Origin: Branchiostoma floridae
Taxonomy: Eukaryota; Chordata; Leptocardii; Amphioxiformes; Branchiostomatidae
Reading direction: 5' to 3'
DNA: 64,000 nt
NCBI RefSeq assembly: GCF_000003815.2
Contig: NC_049987.1
Location: 12,895,434-12,959,433, forward strand
Below are positions 41,599-51,374 of this stretch, one piece after another. The notes beneath the pieces were generated by a model that saw nothing but the letters and a program-made list of their open reading frames with translations, was not told where the DNA came from and ran no database searches. The stretch's first letter is position 1. Each line of letters starts with the position of its first letter. The position numbers and the translations under genes are program-made.

Positions 41599-44500
41599 TC
41601 ATACCCCTGATACACATGATTTCAACTGCTCGCAACAGGAACCAACTGCCTCACGACACCGCTGGATGACTCGCTTCATCTTACGCTTAACCAGAACCTT
41701 AATACCTAGAGGGTGACTCTGTCCCTGACTGTCATTCTCCTGTGCTACCCTGTGCTGCTCACTATAAACAAGGGTCTGTAACACAGACTGGGGGAAGTCC
41801 AGTGGTTGAATCCTCAGCCTGACTGACTCTGCTGATCTAGCAATGATGGTGTACAAATCAGCTGTTGTGATGTCATGTACTGGTAGGAAGTTCACAGCGA
41901 CCAGGCGCCCCACCGGCAGGGATGCGTCACTGTCGGCAGCTTGACAGACCACATGGATTCTGCGCATGGACTGCTCGGTGCTACCACTGAAGGATCTCTC
42001 TGAGATCTCTGTTGGCATGAGAGAAACCCCAAACTGCCCAAGGGTGTTCCTATACAGGACGAAGTCCTTACACCTGGCAGGTTTGGGTGGTGGGGTAGGA
42101 GTGGTTCCTGTGGTCTCTGCTGTGTCGCTCTGCAGCCGGGTGCAAGGTGGTTTCTGTGGGGCTGCAATAACAGTAACCACACTGTCTGCTGAGCTGATGG
42201 AGCTCGTCTCTCCTGAGCTGATGGAGCTCGTCTCTCCTGAGCTGATGGAGCTCGTCTCTCCTGAGCTGAAGGAGCTCGTCTCTGCTGTCATCTGCTCCCA
42301 TTGGTCCACAATCTCTCCAACATGATCCGGGAGTCTGGAGGAAAAGAGAAGTATACCTAACTTCCCTGAGTTCTATAATACACACTCATCATAGAAAAGT
42401 TTTGTGTTAAAGAAAACTTCCTTGCCAAAAGGAAAGTCTATGTTTTTTATTGTAAGTTTTAACTTTATTGTATTGTATTGTAATGCATGTAATTGTGAAT
42501 AAGGAGTGCTTCATCCCCAGAGGAAAAAAATCTTTTAAAGAGATTATCATAACTGTGGCAAAAAGGCTTGTCAGATTACTAGCATGAACACTAAAATGAT
42601 ATAACCACATCTGTACCTGATCCGGACTTTGTCCACATCTGGTAGTGAGTGGAGGTGTGTGGCATGTTGTGCCTGGTTGGCCAGAGCCTCGAATCTCTGT
42701 ACCAGTGTGCTCACGCTAGCTGATCTGTAGAGGACAGACAAACAAAAGATAGTTAGAAGTCCCGCAATTCATGTCCAGTCATTTGTGAAGACTTGACACA
42801 TGCATGGAGTCAACTTTTCTCATCGCTGGTCATGGGTCTCAAGGTCACGGGGTCTCAAGGTCATGGGTCTCAAGGTCATGGCAACGTCATCCTTGCTGCA
42901 CGTTTGTTCTGCTCACAGCAGACAAGATAAAGATCATTTTTATACAGTGACAGAGTACTACTGCAATAGTCTCCATATTAATAATGTGTCAACCACAGTA
43001 TAGAAGGATATGCAGTTTTGCAGATTGAAAAGTAGATTGTAGTTGGGAGTAGTGCAAGAACAGTGGTAGCTCAAAAGGCTATCATAATAGTTCTTACTCG
43101 CTAACTGATGTTGTCACTGCATCACCTCCCTGACTCAGCCGAGCAGGTAAGGCAACATGCTGTAACAAATTAGAGGAAACAAAACATAATAGAGTAAATG
43201 AAAGAGGGATAAAGCAAAGGTAGATACATGAAATAATATGAAAATTATGACAGTTGAGGAGCATCTCTTGGTTGAGTTCAGCCACCTTCGCTGAATTCTA
43301 TTGATGACGTCCTTGTATGAAGGTTCGAATATGGATACAAGAGCAAGTAAGAATAAGGAAAGATGGTAAAATCTTAATGTGAACGTCTTCAGTAGTCTTT
43401 GGATAAGATTCAAACACGGTCCAGTTTACAGACCAATATTTTATGCTTTTTCACGATTGATGATCTGTCAGTACAATGTACCAATACGAGCGATCGCGCT
43501 GACGTCACGGTTACGTCACGTGACGTCATGGTAGGCAAAAAGCTGCTGGTGGGCGAGGAGGGCGGGCTGAACCCTCCTCGCCCACCAGTTGCGCGCGGGA
43601 AACGCAAACATGCCGACCAGTTGTTGTGCGCTGAATTGTACTAACCGGAAGGATAAAGGCAGTAGAAAGAAGTTTTTTAGAATCCCTGCGGAACCAGGAC
43701 GAAGGGCTGCATGGCTTAGAGCCTTAAAAAGGTCAGATTTTGAGCAGGGAAAGAAAAACCCGACCGCGGCGTGGACACCACGAGGCCACGAGAGAGTGTG
43801 CAGCGACCATTTCATCTCAGGTTTGTGATCTATATGTTTTATATTTTGTTGTTGTCCCCCTTGCATAAATACATTTTTCGTGATGTAATAGTGTACTTTT
43901 TCGTTACACATCNNNNNNNNNNNNNNNNNNNNNNNNNNNNNNNNNNNNNNNNNNNNNNNNNNNNNNNNNNNNNNNNNNNNNNNNNNNNNNNNNNNNNNNN
44001 NNNNNNNNNNNNNNNNNNNNNNNNNNNNNNNNNNNNNNNNNNNNNNNNNNNNNNNNNNNNNNNNNNNNNNNNNNNNNNNNNNNNNNNNNNNNNNNNNNNN
44101 NNNNNNNNNNNNNNNNNNNNNNNNNNNNNNNNNNNNNNNNNNNNNNNNNNNNNNNNNNNNNNNNNNNNNNNNNNNNNNNNNNNNNNNNNNNNNNNNNNNN
44201 NNNNNNNNNNNNNNNNNNNNNNNNNNNNNNNNNNNNNNNNNNNNNNNNNNNNNNNNNNNNNNNNNNNNNNNNNNNNNNNNNNNNNNNNNNNNNNNNNNNN
44301 NNNNNNNNNNNNNNNNNNNNNNNNNNNNNNNNNNNNNNNNNNNNNNNNNNNNNNNNNNNNNNNNNNNNNNNNNNNNNNNNNNNNNNNNNNNNNNNNNNNN
44401 NNNNNNNNNCCTAACCACAAGACCAATTGCCACCTCATTTTAAAATCATGTTTATAATACTGACAAGTTCTTTGCTTCTTGCATTGCAGGGAACCCTTCT

Positions 44501-47500
44501 AAAGACCCTGCAGATCCAGATTACGTCCCAAGCTTGTTTAACCTCCCAACCTCAGCAAGTTGCAATCGTTCAAGAAACCCAGTTGCCAAGAAAGATCGGT
44601 AGGTAACATTGGGGTTTTCAATGTTTCTTTATTGAAATTTGATTTACTGCTCATGCTGTTCATGCAGGCAGGCTGTTCATGCCTGTGTGAAACATTGCTA
44701 TACTCTACCTCCTTGCCTGAGAAGATGACCATGAAAGTTTTACCAAGGATTCAGTTAAATCTCACAAAGATCCTGTAAGTTACTCATGTTAGAGTTTACA
44801 CCTAGTCAAATGTTTTATATTTCATAACATTCACAGCAGTAATCACTAAATGCTATGCTAACAGAATGTATGTAGGAAACAAAGCATGCAACTTTGATTT
44901 ACAACTTACAACATGCTTCATTGTTTGCAGGTATATGCGTGCAGCAAAAAGGCTGCGGGTGTCATCAGAGAATGAAGCCCCACCTACATCACTAAATGGT
45001 AAGGGCATTACAGAGGGAATAAGAAAAGTGTCTAATGGATACAATCAGTAATCCTAAACATATAAATTCTTGATCAACAGTTTAATCTATCATTCTTGCT
45101 CAACAAGTAAATCTATCACTTGTCACTTATTCAACATGAATCACATACCATACACACAAGACTACTTGCTACAAAGTTTATCCGCTTGGTTTTCGGAGTG
45201 GGGATATAGATGTGAATCAAGTAGAGAAGCATGCAACCTGCATGAGTAAAATATTGAAACAACAATACATACATATGAATCAGAGTTTAGAACATTCAGT
45301 TCAGTTCAGATATATGACACTCATTATCACATAGCACTTTCATTGAACTTCGGATTTGCTTTATTTCAGATGAAGAAATGATCGCTGACCCTCCTCCTGA
45401 AAGTGTAGAGACTCTGAGAGACCCCCTTCCTGAAAGTGTAGAGACTCTGAGAGAACAGCTCACAAAAGTACAAGAGGAGAAATGTAAGTTGGAACAGTTT
45501 TGCGAGTCCCTTCAAAGTGAAGCTGACAACCTTAGGGAAGAACGTGATCACCTTCAAGAACAAATCAAGAAATCATCAACATCAGCCTCCAATCTCACAG
45601 ATGCAAAATGCAAGCTCTTCACTGGAATACCTACTGTTGCACTGTTTATGTTTGTGTTTAGACTTGTTAGTGATTTCATTGCTCCTCTAAAGTCCATGTG
45701 TCAGCAGGATCAAATACTCATGACTCTCATGAAGTTGAGACTAGGCCTCAAAAATGCTGATCTAGCTTTGAGATTTAGTGTTTCTGCCTCCACAGTTTCA
45801 AAAGTCATAAACCGTTGTATTCCAATCTTAGCTGTCCGACTAAAGTTCCTGATTCATTGGCCGTCCAAGGAAACCGTAAAGCGCAATCTTCCCAAAAAAT
45901 TTCGGAAAAAAAAAATACTCAAACTGTAGAGTCATCATTGATTGCTCAGAGATTTTCACTGAGAGGCCATACAATTTAAAGACCCGAGCAAAGACCTGGA
46001 GTAACTACAAACACCATCATACGTTCAAATTTCTGGTAGGTATTACACCTTATGGAGCAGTGTCATTTCTGTCCAGTTCCTGGGGTGGAAGAATTTCTGA
46101 TAAAGACATTACGCTAAAAAGTCGTTTCTATAACAAAGTGGAATATGGTGATATGATTATGGCAGATCGGGGATTCACCATTTCTGAGGAACTTGCCCTG
46201 AAAGGAGCAACACTAGTTATGCCACCATTTACCACAGGAAGGAAACAACTCCCGGGGCGTATCGTCCAAGATGCCAGACAGATATCAACTCTAAGAATTC
46301 ATGTAGAACGTGCAATTGAAAGAATCAAGAACTTCCAAATTCTCAGCCAAATCTGTCCATTAACATTTGCCCCTCTACTCAGTGACAGTGTTGTTATCTG
46401 TGCGGCTCTTACAAACTTACTTCCAAAGCTAATCAAGTAATTTTTAATGGCAATGTTGTCTGCACGAGCTGGCCTTTTCTGTATATCAAAATACTGAGAT
46501 TGAAGGTAAAATGTTAAAGGGACACAAAACAAATTTTTGGGAAGCCCACTACAATATAATAAGTATACCACAAAGTACAATTCTTACTTGTTTTACATTA
46601 GTTTTTTAAAACATGACATAAAACTGTAAAATGCCTTCTATTGTTATACTAGTATTTTTAGTATTTCAAACTGTCCAGTAGGATTTAGCATTGACAACTG
46701 GGACAGAACCAATGGCCCCTTGGTTTTCTCTTGATGCCAGCACATTTGTAATGGAACCATTCTGACTCACATTCATTGTTATCACACTTTACCATCCTAC
46801 CATATGCTGGTTTCTGACAAGAACAGTAACGTTTGTTTGGGTCATCATCTTCCTGGAAAGTCACATCTACTCCAGAGTCTCCACACTGTAACTTGTGGGT
46901 CAGTATCTCAGGGATAAGACTGGACTTTACAAACTGGACACATGTAGACAACATTACATTTAACAGTGACTGGTCCCTTGGAACATTTACTACAACCATG
47001 CCTGCATTAGTCCACACTACAAAATCACATGTTGAGACACCGGTAACCAGCATATGTGTCTGGACTTGGGTGTAATATCTGTGCCCTGTCTTTAGCTTAC
47101 AATCCTTATCTAAACAGTAGTTGGCATCTGATAGACACAGATCTGCAGCAGGATAGATGTCCCTGTACTTGTATGGGCACTTGATCTCAATCACAGTTCT
47201 TCCATGGCATGAACACTGTCTCATCCCATCAGGAGATGCACCTATATATACAACAGTAATGTTCAAATTAGTGGCAAAGTTTCTGATATTTCAAACATGA
47301 ACATAATGTACTTACTTTTGATACTTGCCAAATGCTGCAAATGGCACATATTCACTTGGTACGAATACAGTGCAATTGTTAAAACAAGTACATGTATTTC
47401 ATTGTTACATCAACAAAATCATAAGTCAATTAGACATTGTGTAGTTGGTACTCAATTACATGTACTATACTTCATAAGTTTGAAGTAAGAGTCAAAATTA

Positions 47501-50500
47501 GCTATACCTATGAAGGGAAAATCCTTGTAGAGAATGAGCCCCACTTCCTCCAATTTCACATCCTTGCAGATGCACAAGGAAGCTTCCAGGTACTGTTGCC
47601 TTGCCTTCTCCTCCTGTTTCATCCCCCATTGTATAGCTGGAACCTGAAAGTGAAATTCCCTATTTAGAATTTCTGACATAGAAAGCACAAATGAATTACA
47701 TCTCTAATATGACACTATCTCGCATTGACTGAACATTTAGACTGTCACACTTTGCAGAAATATTTAGACTCCTGGTATTGTTTAAATCCAAATAAAGATC
47801 AGAGCTACACTTGCTCTGGGATTATTATGGTACATGTTCCAATATACAGGGTAATGTTGTCTCTTTGTGTGCCTTAATTACCTACGAAAAATGGCTTCCT
47901 GCAAGTGTACACTGTACTAGTTTTCAGTTAACTCACTTGGCTCAAATCCTTGCAGTCATATTGCATGACCTTCCGTACTGCAGTGGTGGGGTTTGATGCA
48001 TGAAGGACATCATGCATGGATGTAGAAGTCACACGACCCTTGCGTTGCTGACGCCATAAAGCAGACTTGGACTGCCCCACTGTAGCTTTGTTGAGGTTTG
48101 TGATTTGCTCGGGGTTGCACCGAACATCCTCAAGGATGCTGTCTACACTAACACTAGTAACAGGGACTTTGGCTGGATGACAAGACCTGTATACCACAGG
48201 GGGAAGCGTCTCTGTGTTGACATCTGACTCATCTTCTGATGCTGTGTCTGTGTCCTCCTCCTCTTTAATGACAGCACTGGCAGTGGGACACAGCTTCCTC
48301 AGTTGTGAGAAAGCAGAAGCGGCCTCTTCTTCACTGAGTGGTGGCACATCACACTGCGGCTTCCGGCGCGCCTTCTTGATCTGGACTCCATGTTTAGGGT
48401 GCGAAAAGTCCATGTCCTCAGCCCTTTGTGGATCAACCTGAAAGAAATAATCCACAAAATGAATTATCAATAATATATGTGAGAAAAAGCATTATACAGN
48501 NNNNNNNNNNNNNNNNNNNNNNNNNNNNNNNNNNNNNNNNNNNNNNNNNNNNNNNNNNNNNNNNNNNNNNNNNNNNNNNNNNNNNNNNNNNNNNNNNNNC
48601 GTTGGGAGTGGACTAAAGCACAACAAGGCTGGACTCCAGGCTAGGAACATCTACTATATTGCTGTAAATCTATAGTGTAGTGCTATATATTGTGAATTGG
48701 ATACATGTAAATGCCACATGATTTTGTAGAAGCAAAGAAATCCATTCATTAATGTAAGTTATAACAGTCTACTTAGGCAAAAAAATTGTAGACATTGAAA
48801 AAAATTCTACTCAATTATAATGCCCAAATATGAACAGACCTTATCTTTGTAATATTTGTTCCACACGGCCTTTCTGCTGGTGCATGACGTCCGTTTTTCC
48901 TGAAGAGACCTGGAGGCCTCCACTGCGAACAGCAGTGCAGCCACATGGCTGCAGACCTCTCCCAATCTACATTGAAATATAACAAAAAATGAGTATACAT
49001 TATAGGTACTATAGTCAGGAGCAATTTTAGAGTTAATGGTAAAAGGAACGGATAAGTTGGCCAGCTTCACAGTACAATGAAAGATTTGCCTTATCTTCTC
49101 ATTATGGAAGTCTCTGTGATATTTGAATATTTCTACTATATACACATTTCTTTTAGCATTATCTACATCTACATGATGATATGTGTTAGTATACTCACTC
49201 TCAGGAACTGTTGATAACTCCAAATTACCTAGAAAACGAAACACATCAACAAGTAAAACCTGCAACAAGAACATCAACAAGAAGAAATGCATTTGCAACA
49301 GGTACAAATACAACTGGAAACCATCAAGCACAAGAACATGAACCAAGGAAAAAAATTAAGACAGTTATCTTGCCACATACAAACTGCATGGTCGCTCCTC
49401 CCTGGAAATATACGGAGGAACATTTACAGGTGAGTACTAGTTTGACTTTCATTATTTCTAAAACTGTTTCTTGCCATGGACCTCATCTGACGAGAACACT
49501 GTTAGATAAAAATGTGACTTTTTGGATATGATGGTCAATGCAGTTATATTACCTACCCTGCCATACAAGTGCAGTGAGCTGCCATGACATAACCCTCTTT
49601 TTTGGTCAAACACACCCATGGGTTGTGAGGAGTCTCTGTTACTCTCTGTCCTGAAACACAAATGTAACAGAAAAAAAAGATAATACAGTAAATATAAAAA
49701 CGTATCTGACAGTTAAATACTAATCACGCATCTCATTCTTCATCTTCAAGAGTTCTCACTACAGGTACATGTAAGTAGAAATATTGTTCCAATGCACTCC
49801 AACACCCACCTGGCACAACCTTGGCCTTAAGGAAGCAGACCTTCACATTTTTTCCAATAGGGTGGTACCTGCACTCCCTCACATGGCCACTTATAAAGAG
49901 ATTGTACGCCTCCAGGGATTTATAGGCTTTCATGGCTTCTCCGTTAAACGGACCTGGAGCCTCGATTAGGTAGGTGTAGATGCACCCATAGTCCGTATCT
50001 GGCCAGCGGCTCAAATCATCCTTCCAACCTGTATAACATACAAATGATAATAAACATAACGTTACGTAGCCAGAATTTCTAGAGATTAGCAACAAACACA
50101 TTTACACGTACTCATGTTTTTGTAACCTTTATCTGACACAAAAATCTACCTTATCAAAATCTAGAAACACATGTACACATGATCCTCACCTGTCAGACTG
50201 TATGGGTCAGGTAGGCGTACACCGTCACCAGTCACCGCCGAACCAGTCACTTCCGGGTTTGAACTATCGCCGGCGTCTTCGACACTTACCATTAATTTCT
50301 CAAAATACCTGGTTCGGTCATTAGGCTCCAAAGAGCTAATGTAGCTGTTTGAAGAACTCATATTGATTAAACGTATTAATTAAACCACATTAGGAACAGA
50401 AATATAACAGCCCGGAACGGATGACAGAAAGCCCGTACGGCGGGAAAATCAAAACAACCGGAAACACATGACGGAAGTCAAGAGGGCAAGGGTCGTTTTC

Positions 50501-50893
50501 TCCCAAAATATTACACAAGAAAAAAAAAAAAAAAGACTAAGAAGTAGTGAAAAAAATACAAAATCTGAAAAAATCCCATGGATGCGATAAAAACGTGGCT
50601 GAAAATGCGCAAATTCGCGTAAACAGTACGATCTGCTTCCGCGCCGGTATGCTAATTAGTAATCTGATCTCCTAACGCTTTTTGCCTACCAGTCAGCGCT
50701 CGTGCGCCGAATACCCCGGATGTAAACAATAACAGCGATTGCTCGTATGATCATGAAGGTCATTGAGTTCAAGTCAGAAAGAATGACTGTTGGCTTTTGA
50801 AAATACTGTCCATACAGATGACTAACTTACCTTCCACTCTTCTCTCTTTGATTCCTTCGGCGTTTTTCGCACTGAGGTCGACATCATCGCCAT
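41599..50893 (-). CDS. PDZ-like domain protein, host gene of the transposon
   Basis: Coding exons in gene order: 50831-50893, 43098-43159, 42617-42724, 41599-42334. Splice sites are consensus and phases agree, giving 969 nt and 322 residues. I do not recognise an ortholog. Residues 1-80 are charged and helical-looking. Residues 97-126 are near-perfect Ser-rich 8-residue repeats (SSGETSSI), followed by a Pro/Thr linker. Residues about 167-257 look like a PDZ-type fold, with GQFGVSL as a carboxylate-loop-like segment and PVGRLVAVN followed by a helix and RLRIQPL. The C-terminus is basic, then Cys-rich. The start is the ATG at 50893; the frame stays open upstream, so an earlier start or exon is possible. 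The first coding intron contains a complete 7.26-kb DNA transposon inserted 83 bp downstream of the splice donor. The gene model is good; the function is unknown. Confidence 0.75.
42189..42285 (-). repeat. 24-bp coding minisatellite
   Basis: Four units of about 24 bp (GAGCTGATGGAGCTCGTCTC on the plus strand), three of them nearly identical. They encode the Ser-rich repeats of the PDZ-like protein. The period is a multiple of three, so copy-number change keeps the frame. Confidence 0.9.
42822..42883 (+). repeat. Short tandem repeat, GGGTCTCAAGGTCAT units
   Basis: About three to four copies of a 16-17-bp unit in the intron between the second and third coding exons of the PDZ-like gene. No coding role. 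Confidence 0.8.
43486..43543 (+). repeat. Left terminal region of the transposon
   Basis: It holds the 12-bp terminal inverted repeat (43486-43497), then two exact TGACGTCA palindromes (43500-43507, 43521-43528) with a TTACGTCA between them, then the subterminal TGGTAGGCAAAAAGC. The palindromes match the CRE/bZIP consensus and lie about 80-110 bp upstream of the transposase ATG, so they may act in its promoter. Confidence 0.8.
43546..43588. repeat. Perfect 17-bp hairpin upstream of the transposase start
   Basis: CTGGTGGGCGAGGAGGG (43546-43562), a 9-base loop, then its exact complement (43572-43588). It ends 21 bases before the transposase ATG. It is GC-rich and would form a stable stem in DNA or in the 5' UTR. 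Possible roles are transposase binding or translational control; both are inference. Confidence 0.9.
43610..46440 (+). CDS. THAP-domain DDE transposase (DDE_Tnp_4), one-base frameshift
   Basis: Exons 43610-43820, 44490-44598, 44931-44998 and 45370-46440 have GT-AG introns with agreeing phases. The gene encodes about 485 residues if one base of the A10 run at 45906-45915 is discounted; as read, the frame stops at 45927. Residues 1-85 are a THAP zinc finger: Cys5 and Cys10 near the start, CSDHF at about 64-68, and PDYVPSLF just after. Residues about 150-197 are a coiled coil (REQLTKVQEEKCKLEQF region), 246-279 an HTH typical of Tnp_4 transposases, and 320-480 the DDE nuclease with Asp320 (IIDCSE), Asp395 (MADRGF) and Glu442 (HVERAIERIK). 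It should bind the element ends and perform cleavage and strand transfer. The ATG at 43610 is chosen because THAP domains begin M-P-x2-C. A 497-base gap lies in intron 1. The break may be a sequencing error or true decay. Confidence 0.88.
43913..44409. other. Assembly gap (497 N)
   Basis: Run of N inside intron 1 of the transposase. The exons on either side join in phase as a normal THAP sequence, so no coding exon need be missing. Confidence 0.99.
45398..45454 (+). repeat. 33-bp tandem duplication in transposase exon 4
   Basis: TGAAAGTGTAGAGACTCTGA occurs twice with a 33-bp period, encoding two copies of an 11-residue PESVETLRDPL-type unit just before the coiled coil. The copies are nearly identical and in frame. 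Confidence 0.85.
46685..50361 (-). CDS. SWIM zinc finger - YqaJ nuclease - PHD finger protein
   Basis: Exons in gene order: 50190-50361, 49810-50028, 49557-49650, 48840-48966, 47937-48437, 47508-47643, 46685-47241. All junctions are GT-AG and in phase, giving 1806 nt and 601 residues with no stop. Residues about 144-175 form a SWIM finger: C157-x-C159 then C167-x-H169, split over exons 3 and 4. Residues about 255-280 are acidic. Residues 329-545 are a YqaJ/lambda-exonuclease-type PD-(D/E)xK domain with W332...RKGRVTS, WGMKQEEKA (377-385), GASPDG (Asp421) and EIKCP (Glu435, Lys437). Residues 554-601 are a C4HC3 PHD finger very like that of ING proteins. It is the second gene of the ISL2EU-like transposon and converges on the transposase. 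The nuclease may process DNA ends or excision products, and the PHD finger may bind methylated histone H3; both roles are inference. Confidence 0.9.
48500..48599. other. Assembly gap (100 N)
   Basis: An exact 100-base run, probably a gap of unknown size, in intron 4 of the YqaJ gene. The flanking exons join in phase 0, so no exon is obviously missing. Confidence 0.99.
49205..49430 (+). other. Possible plus-strand exon inside YqaJ intron 3
   Basis: An acceptor-like ACTCTCAG precedes 49205 and a strong donor, ACAG|GTGAGT, follows 49430. One frame is open throughout and is rich in Thr, Asn and basic residues. No family is recognised and no partner exon was found. It could be a chance open frame in an intron of the opposite-strand gene. 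Confidence 0.25.
50677..50746 (-). repeat. Right terminal region of the transposon
   Basis: This holds the inverted GCTTTTTGCCTACCA (50677-50691) and the terminal GCGATTGCTCGT (50735-50746). The spacing between the two differs from the left end (about 43 versus 55 bases), and the CRE-like palindromes of the left end are absent, so the two ends are asymmetric. Confidence 0.8.
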
Positions 50894-51374
50894 GTCCAAC
50901 CTGGTCGCAAGTTCGGTAGACAAAGTTGTCGTTTTCGAACTCTCAGTCCTGACAAAGTCATCAGATCGGAAAAGTCGATAGAAAAACGTGAAATAGGTCA
51001 AAATTGAAATTGTCACTTGCTTCGTAGACAGCAAAACTACATGTATGCATTTCAAAATGTTCATAACAACACATAAATGGCAGAAATGCGTATTCCAATG
51101 AGTGTAAACTTGTCCTTATTGACTTTGAGTGACCTTGGTAGTTTAGGTGACCTCTGTGAACCAAATGACATAACAAGCTTCGTCATACCGCCACTTTGGG
51201 CGCTCAAACTGCCTTCCTAACAGGTGACCAACTCTTACGGGTAAGATATGACCGAGACTTGTAACTTTTCTGGGCTTTTTTTGCTAAATTCTTCACCTAA
51301 ACAGTAAAGAGAAAATTTCCCACCTGCTTCTCGAACAGGAAACTTTTGTGTGTGTGTAGAACCAGAGAACTTGT

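Follow-up and report, generated by a model that had tools for sequence, protein, structure and literature searches.

The stretch of Branchiostoma floridae DNA that we analyzed (64 kb; hereafter the window) contains a transposon with two convergent genes (Table 1). The gene on the + strand has four exons and codes for a transposase, and the gene on the - strand has seven exons (50361-46685) and codes, in an open frame, for a protein of 601 residues with a YqaJ nuclease domain and a PHD finger behind it. Exon borders in both genes are predictions, made by hand-picking GT-AG sites that keep the reading frame rather than from RNA. The left end of the element reads ACGAGCGATCGC and the right end, when reverse-complemented, ACGAGCAATCGC; 11 of the 12 bases agree, and both ends are flanked by AT. 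Inside them, at distances of 43 bp from the left end and 55 bp from the right end, a 15-bp sequence (TGGTAGGCAAAAAGC) is present as an exactly matching inverted pair, and these two sites are the sole occurrences of its core, TGGTAGGCA, in the window. In a sequence-only reading, this locus had been described as a complete element: matched 12-bp ends flanked by AT target duplications, an inverted pair of 15-bp subterminal repeats, and two spliced genes that converge. All of these features were recovered, and the word "complete" is true of the ends and exons, not of every base, because there are two assembly gaps (N), both of them in introns.

Table 1. Coordinates of the transposon and its parts in the 64-kb Branchiostoma floridae window.
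Feature	Position	Strand	Remarks
Transposon	43486-50746		12-bp ends, AT on both flanks, two convergent genes
Left AT target-site duplication	43484-43485	none	AT/AT in 20/20 end-to-end copies
Left terminal inverted repeat, ACGAGCGATCGC	43486-43497	+	from end searches and fetched copies
Left subterminal 15-bp repeat, TGGTAGGCAAAAAGC	43529-43543	+	candidate THAP-domain binding site; within 120 bp of the left end in 20/20 end-to-end copies
Transposase exon 1, most of THAP domain	43610-43820	+	splice sites predicted
Assembly gap (N)	43913-44409	none	transposase intron 1
Transposase exon 2, end of THAP	44490-44598	+	splice sites predicted
Transposase exon 3	44931-44998	+	splice sites predicted
Transposase exon 4: likely coiled coil, HTH_Tnp_4, DDE_Tnp_4	45370-46440	+	one frame break; first frame runs to 45929
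YqaJ gene exon 7: C-terminal nuclease part, ING-like PHD finger, stop codon	46685-47241	-	profile and structure-chain matches
YqaJ gene exon 6	47508-47643	-	splice sites predicted
YqaJ gene exon 5, start of nuclease	47937-48437	-	splice sites predicted
Assembly gap (N)	48500-48599	none	intron of YqaJ gene
YqaJ gene exon 4, second half of SWIM-like CxC..CxH motif	48840-48966	-	SWIM under Pfam cut-off
YqaJ gene exon 3, first half of SWIM-like motif	49557-49650	-	splice sites predicted
YqaJ gene exon 2	49810-50028	-	splice sites predicted
YqaJ gene exon 1, start codon	50190-50361	-	splice sites predicted
Right subterminal 15-bp repeat, inverted copy	50677-50691	-	within 120 bp of the right end in 19/20 end-to-end copies
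Right terminal inverted repeat, ACGAGCAATCGC when reverse-complemented	50735-50746	-	11/12 bases agree with left
Right AT target-site duplication	50747-50748	none	AT/AT in 20/20 end-to-end copies

The domains of both proteins are clearest in a gap-free copy of the element, L025. Its spliced transposase matches the Pfam families THAP (E = 3.3e-13), HTH_Tnp_4 (2.5e-17) and DDE_Tnp_4 (3.2e-42), in agreement with the THAP-DDE transposase that had been proposed for the window, and its second protein matches YqaJ (3.7e-19); all four matches exceed the Pfam cut-offs. Splicing the exons of L025 restored the THAP profile over its full length (positions 1-87 of 87) and strengthened the YqaJ match, whereas the unspliced exons of the window gave only partial matches, which supports the splice sites that we chose. 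In open copies the transposase is 485 residues long and its DDE domain begins at residue 319. As the sequence-only reading had noted, one gene of the window copy (YqaJ) is fully open and the other has a single break in a homopolymer region. The break places a stop after residue 315 of the transposase, before the DDE domain, so the window copy could move only in trans, helped by another copy; it may itself be an assembly error. A comparison of transposase exon 4 with solved structures returned six weak matches (best E = 0.024), to a coiled-coil-like stretch. Ahead of this stretch is a repeated peptide, encoded by a 33-bp tandem duplication (94% alike; 45387-45452).

The second protein had been read as SWIM-YqaJ-PHD. 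Its nuclease part aligns with the exonuclease 3syy (E = 1.7e-4) over a region that includes the stretches SPDG and EIKCP, which we take to hold the catalytic residues, as well as with protein R354 (5yeu; E = 1.9e-3). The SWIM and PHD parts fall below the Pfam cut-offs, and the finger turned out to be of a type that the earlier reading had left unnamed. When the PHD finger from the L025 exon was compared with solved protein chains, the best matches were ING1, ING4, ING3, ING2, ING5 and their yeast relatives, with E-values of about 1e-18 for ING1 and ING4 (1.3e-18 for ING1) and 1.7e-15 for ING5. The finger in the window is 52-54% identical to those of ING1 and ING4, and 55% identical to the product of an ING-like exon in the same genome (L070). 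We transferred the positions of the binding cage from ING3 by spacing and by the alignment rows of ING1 and ING4; on this basis the element keeps both the Tyr and the Trp that mutation tests have shown to be critical in ING3. The final exon of the YqaJ gene in the window was modeled with AlphaFold from the single sequence; the mean pLDDT was 36.5, and the model was not used.

Judged by sequence, a YqaJ partner ending in an ING-type PHD finger is the one feature of this element that looks new. The word PHD has no occurrences in the main text of the paper that defines the ISL2EU transposons (PMC4482050), and in PMC9179366 it appears only as the academic degree. A literature search combining YqaJ, PHD finger and transposon found nothing, and a looser one nothing relevant, in the sources covered; these exclude Repbase and most subscription journals, so either the finger or the family could already be listed there.

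We searched the B. floridae genome (513 Mb in 431 contigs) for other copies, scoring only the best candidates, so that the counts are lower bounds. The left 217 bp have at least 31 matches with 88-100% identity (27 of them at 96-100%, and one spanning only 178 bp), the right 369 bp have at least 33 matches at 96-100%, and a 1069-base query from the transposase exon has at least 30, of which 13 extend over the whole query and the others are partial. In all, the genome contains about 30 dispersed, near-identical copies, the element in the window among them. A search with the ends and the transposase had been set beforehand as the check on this point, and its outcome, many near-identical copies with AT duplications, rules out a single-copy locus. 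The two genes could in principle be domesticated single-copy host genes that are neighbors by chance, since one is fully open and THAP and PHD domains are also found in host proteins; the dispersed copies, with the same ends and the same AT duplications, rule this out and leave it next to no probability.

Of the 20 copies that we fetched end to end, four have both genes open. Among the other 16, some have deletions and some contain N gaps, in which case openness cannot be told; our exon finder requires exact short markers, so one changed marker base can also make a copy "not complete". Across the genome, 11 places have transposase exon 4 open over the full 355 residues of the query, and 15 have the last YqaJ exon open over its full 184. 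Copies without gaps or deletions are about 7.39 kb long. Eight of the 20 have lost over 900 bp from their interior, with a readable junction in the BLAST segments (seven with an overlap of 1-3 bp and one with a 30-bp insert), but the overlaps carry no weight, as no chance expectation was computed for them.

AT is present on both sides of all 20 of these copies, and it adjoins all 20 further ends that we fetched singly (a set that omits a few ends, on C424, C11 and C4). The end queries contained the AT, and every near-full-length match listed extends over it. A 26-base pattern for the left end, with free positions so that it fits both the long copies and the short relatives described below, has 128 matches in the genome and its reversed control has none, so the ends are beyond chance. 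Pairing of ends yielded 26 two-ended sites, no two of which have in common either the 14 flanking bases on the left or the 12 on the right that we compared. One of these sites, on C14, is 12.7 kb long with two transposase pieces and may be more than one element.

A dead family, multiplied by segmental or assembly duplication without transposition, would also produce near-identical copies. It could account for the large N gaps and deletions in some copies, and for loci L017 (C3:7985521) and L048 (C9:7695968), whose left flanks are identical over at least 42 bp because the locus was duplicated or because both lie in the same repeat. L048 is a single end outside the 26 two-ended sites among which the flanks were compared. 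At the 26 sites the flanks are distinct and AT is duplicated at each, which rules out segmental duplication as their source, and for the family as a whole we regard such an origin as highly improbable. At one copy, L013 (C174:418622-427827), both flanks are the inverted ends, about 90 bp long, of another dispersed repeat, as if the element lay between two of that repeat's ends.

Short elements of 184-200 bp carry the same ACGAGC ends. We fetched 15 loci with related ends, and in six of them both ends could be paired by script; AT is present on both sides in five of the six, and the sixth (L057) has AT and AA. TGGTAGGCA is near the left end in five of the six, and its complement is near the right end in three, in an orientation opposite to that in the long element. 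Judging by sequence, a transposase-binding site could look like this motif, which long and short elements both retain near their ends. One short element, used as a query with eight flanking bases, produced 444 first-look candidates, of which 40 were scored; the 39 other than itself are 82-87% identical to it. The flanks of L054, L055 and L058 are common to all three, which indicates one insertion copied with its surroundings and not three insertions. Seven loci (L054, L055, L056, L058 and L051-L053) have the same 12 bases before the AT, so the short element there sits inside a larger dispersed repeat.

The copies of the long element are very similar to each other. Six near-full-length copies, including the one in the window, differ pairwise by 0.12-0.26% (mean 0.184% over 15 pairs), and the columns with substitutions comprise 28 singletons and only 5 shared changes, a star-like pattern that indicates a burst. 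For B. floridae, PMC12862219 gives a germline rate, per base and generation, of 5.89e-9; on this figure the pairwise common ancestor lies about 156,000 generations back (range 103,000-219,000), if the copies are neutral and free of gene conversion. Their divergence is about 22 times lower than that between two B. floridae alleles (diversity 0.0397 in the same source). Because the ancestor of the copies is far younger than that of the alleles, many insertions of the family should still be polymorphic, and probably are. Relative to L025, the coding changes in the six copies are 1 silent and 6 replacing in the transposase, and 2 silent and 6 replacing in the YqaJ gene; they show no constraint since insertion, as expected for young copies. 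The number of near-identical dispersed copies and the four copies with both genes open support recent activity, and the family is probably young and still mobile. The sequence-only reading had called the window copy near-intact and perhaps recently active; recent activity is supported for the family, but the window copy itself, as assembled, cannot make a DDE domain. With open genes in several copies and insertions that are probably polymorphic, activity of this young family is directly testable.

As described in PMC4482050, ISL2EU transposons (25 families in 14 animal species, and reported only from animals) have AT target-site duplications, a transposase with THAP, HTH and DDE domains, and a second gene with a YqaJ exonuclease domain. 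For our element, AT duplications are present at all copies that we examined, the transposase combines THAP, HTH and DDE domains, and the partner is a YqaJ protein; this supports the ISL2EU-type classification originally suggested. Its copies bear the signatures of cut-and-paste transposition in their ends, AT duplications and dispersed positions, and they include copies with two open genes and this domain make-up. It is very likely that the element is a copy of a very young, multicopy ISL2EU family of cut-and-paste DNA transposons of about 7.39 kb. A study of fish published in 2022 did not detect ISL2EU in B. floridae, though it cites an earlier report of its presence there (PMC9179366).

Several observations weigh against this assignment. 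The terminal inverted repeat begins with AC in all 20 copies, and not with the GG that ISL2EU elements "usually" have according to PMC4482050, and the A|AT|T target context given there is weak, with A before the AT at 50% of the 26 sites, T after it at 42%, and G before it at none. The element is also longer, at about 7.4 kb, than the mean of about 4.8 kb in that source, and differs in its ING-type PHD finger. The SWIM-like CxC...CxH motif upstream of the nuclease scores 13.6 bits (Pfam cut-off 19.6), and the candidate THAP motif is present at both ends in only 2 of the 6 two-ended short relatives, with the right copy reversed there. No paralogous empty site was shown: for the one copy that we tried, L013, the flanks are the ends of the other repeat and were uninformative. 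DDE_Tnp_4 and HTH_Tnp_4 are not specific to ISL2EU, and together with the AC start this would allow the element to belong to another PHIS/Harbinger branch (PIF/Harbinger, Pangu or Nuwa) or to the "IS4EU" of Repbase. PIF/Harbinger elements resemble ours in having a related DDE transposase and two genes, but they have TWA duplications and a Myb/SANT partner where ours has AT and YqaJ; the six Pfam families listed for our second protein do not include Myb/SANT. Since the target duplication is AT, and not TWA, ANT, CWG or TNA, and a THAP domain is present, we consider a position outside ISL2EU unlikely, on a comparison that took in the PHIS/Harbinger branches and not IS4EU.

We found 15 further places in the genome where transposase and YqaJ matches are paired (by eye, within about 5 kb), 12 of them convergent and 3 divergent. 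We examined 11 loci, comprising ten of these 15 and an extra YqaJ locus, L069 (L066-L069 and L071-L077). PHD-like fingers follow the nuclease in five of the 11: in L066, L068 and L069 by pattern search, and in L067 and L072 by tblastn and by eye. None was recognized in the other six. The YqaJ genes of L066, L068 and L069 end in two successive PHD-like fingers, and L066 and L069 seem to belong to a single family. Against the window finger, six fingers from four of these loci have 29-36% identity, and the ING pattern is absent from the fingers of all five loci, although a Trp is kept in L067 and L072. Fingers thus recur at this place, and among the loci examined the ING type occurs only in the family of the window element.

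To our knowledge, it is an open question why ISL2EU elements carry a second, nuclease gene. In the mechanism that we envisage, the THAP domain would bind the subterminal TGGTAGGCA sites, a putative role on which a search of the THAP-site literature returned nothing on point, and the DDE domain would cut at the ACGAGC ends and join them to an AT target. The YqaJ protein, which is lambda-exonuclease-like and has a SWIM-like motif, may be an obligate or helper partner that trims or binds the ends. Its ING-type PHD finger could dock the complex on nucleosomes marked by trimethylation of histone H3 at lysine 4 (H3K4me3), favoring open chromatin for excision or insertion. The finger resembles those of ING1-5 in identity and in its best solved-structure matches, and differs from them in being fused behind a YqaJ nuclease in a transposon. 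It raises the question of whether a DNA transposon chooses its sites of action by histone marks.

There is a parallel in RAG1/RAG2 and the RAG-like transposons, which also combine a DDE recombinase with a second, PHD-bearing protein; the RAG2 finger binds H3K4me3, and the amphioxus ProtoRAG is without a PHD finger, according to PMC8355894. The RAG transposase is of another family and its partner is a beta-propeller protein, not a YqaJ nuclease, so that the likeness is one of design and not of descent. By analogy, the element could be a mobile animal transposon whose nuclease helper reads H3K4me3 and steers its transposase to active promoters, the RAG1/RAG2 design having been reached independently in a lancelet, where ProtoRAG reportedly lost its PHD finger. 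We put this forward as a speculative proposal that is, on balance, unlikely to be right in full.

Points that count against a chromatin-reading role begin with the finger, which scores 21.0 bits with the general Pfam PHD profile, under its cut-off of 24, and has Ala in place of the third ING cage residue (Ser-369 in ING3). We also compared the +/-300-bp flanks of 20 insertion sites with 93 blocks of the window, and found no significant difference in GC content (0.416 vs 0.429, P = 0.10) or CpG (0.84 vs 0.75, P = 0.21), so flank composition lends no support to promoter targeting; the background in this comparison is one 64-kb window and not the genome, and CpG is a poor promoter proxy. The finger may be only a structural or general binding zinc finger, an explanation that draws on this lack of an insertion-site signal and on the related loci whose fingers lack the ING pattern, and that is opposed by the 52-55% identity of the family's finger to ING fingers and by its retention of the two residues critical in ING3. 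We see this simpler role as a substantial possibility, though short of an even chance.

Minor features were also noted in and around the element. Just inside its left end, at 43546-43588, the two arms of a perfect inverted repeat, 17 bp each, enclose a loop of 9 bp. Eight proteins from neighboring exon-like frames have no Pfam match at E = 0.01. On the - strand at 50825-51115, about 80-90 bp from the right end, an exon-like frame, itself without a Pfam match, has a start codon and an end that resembles a splice donor. Should this be a first exon, the element would lie within the 5' part of a gene.

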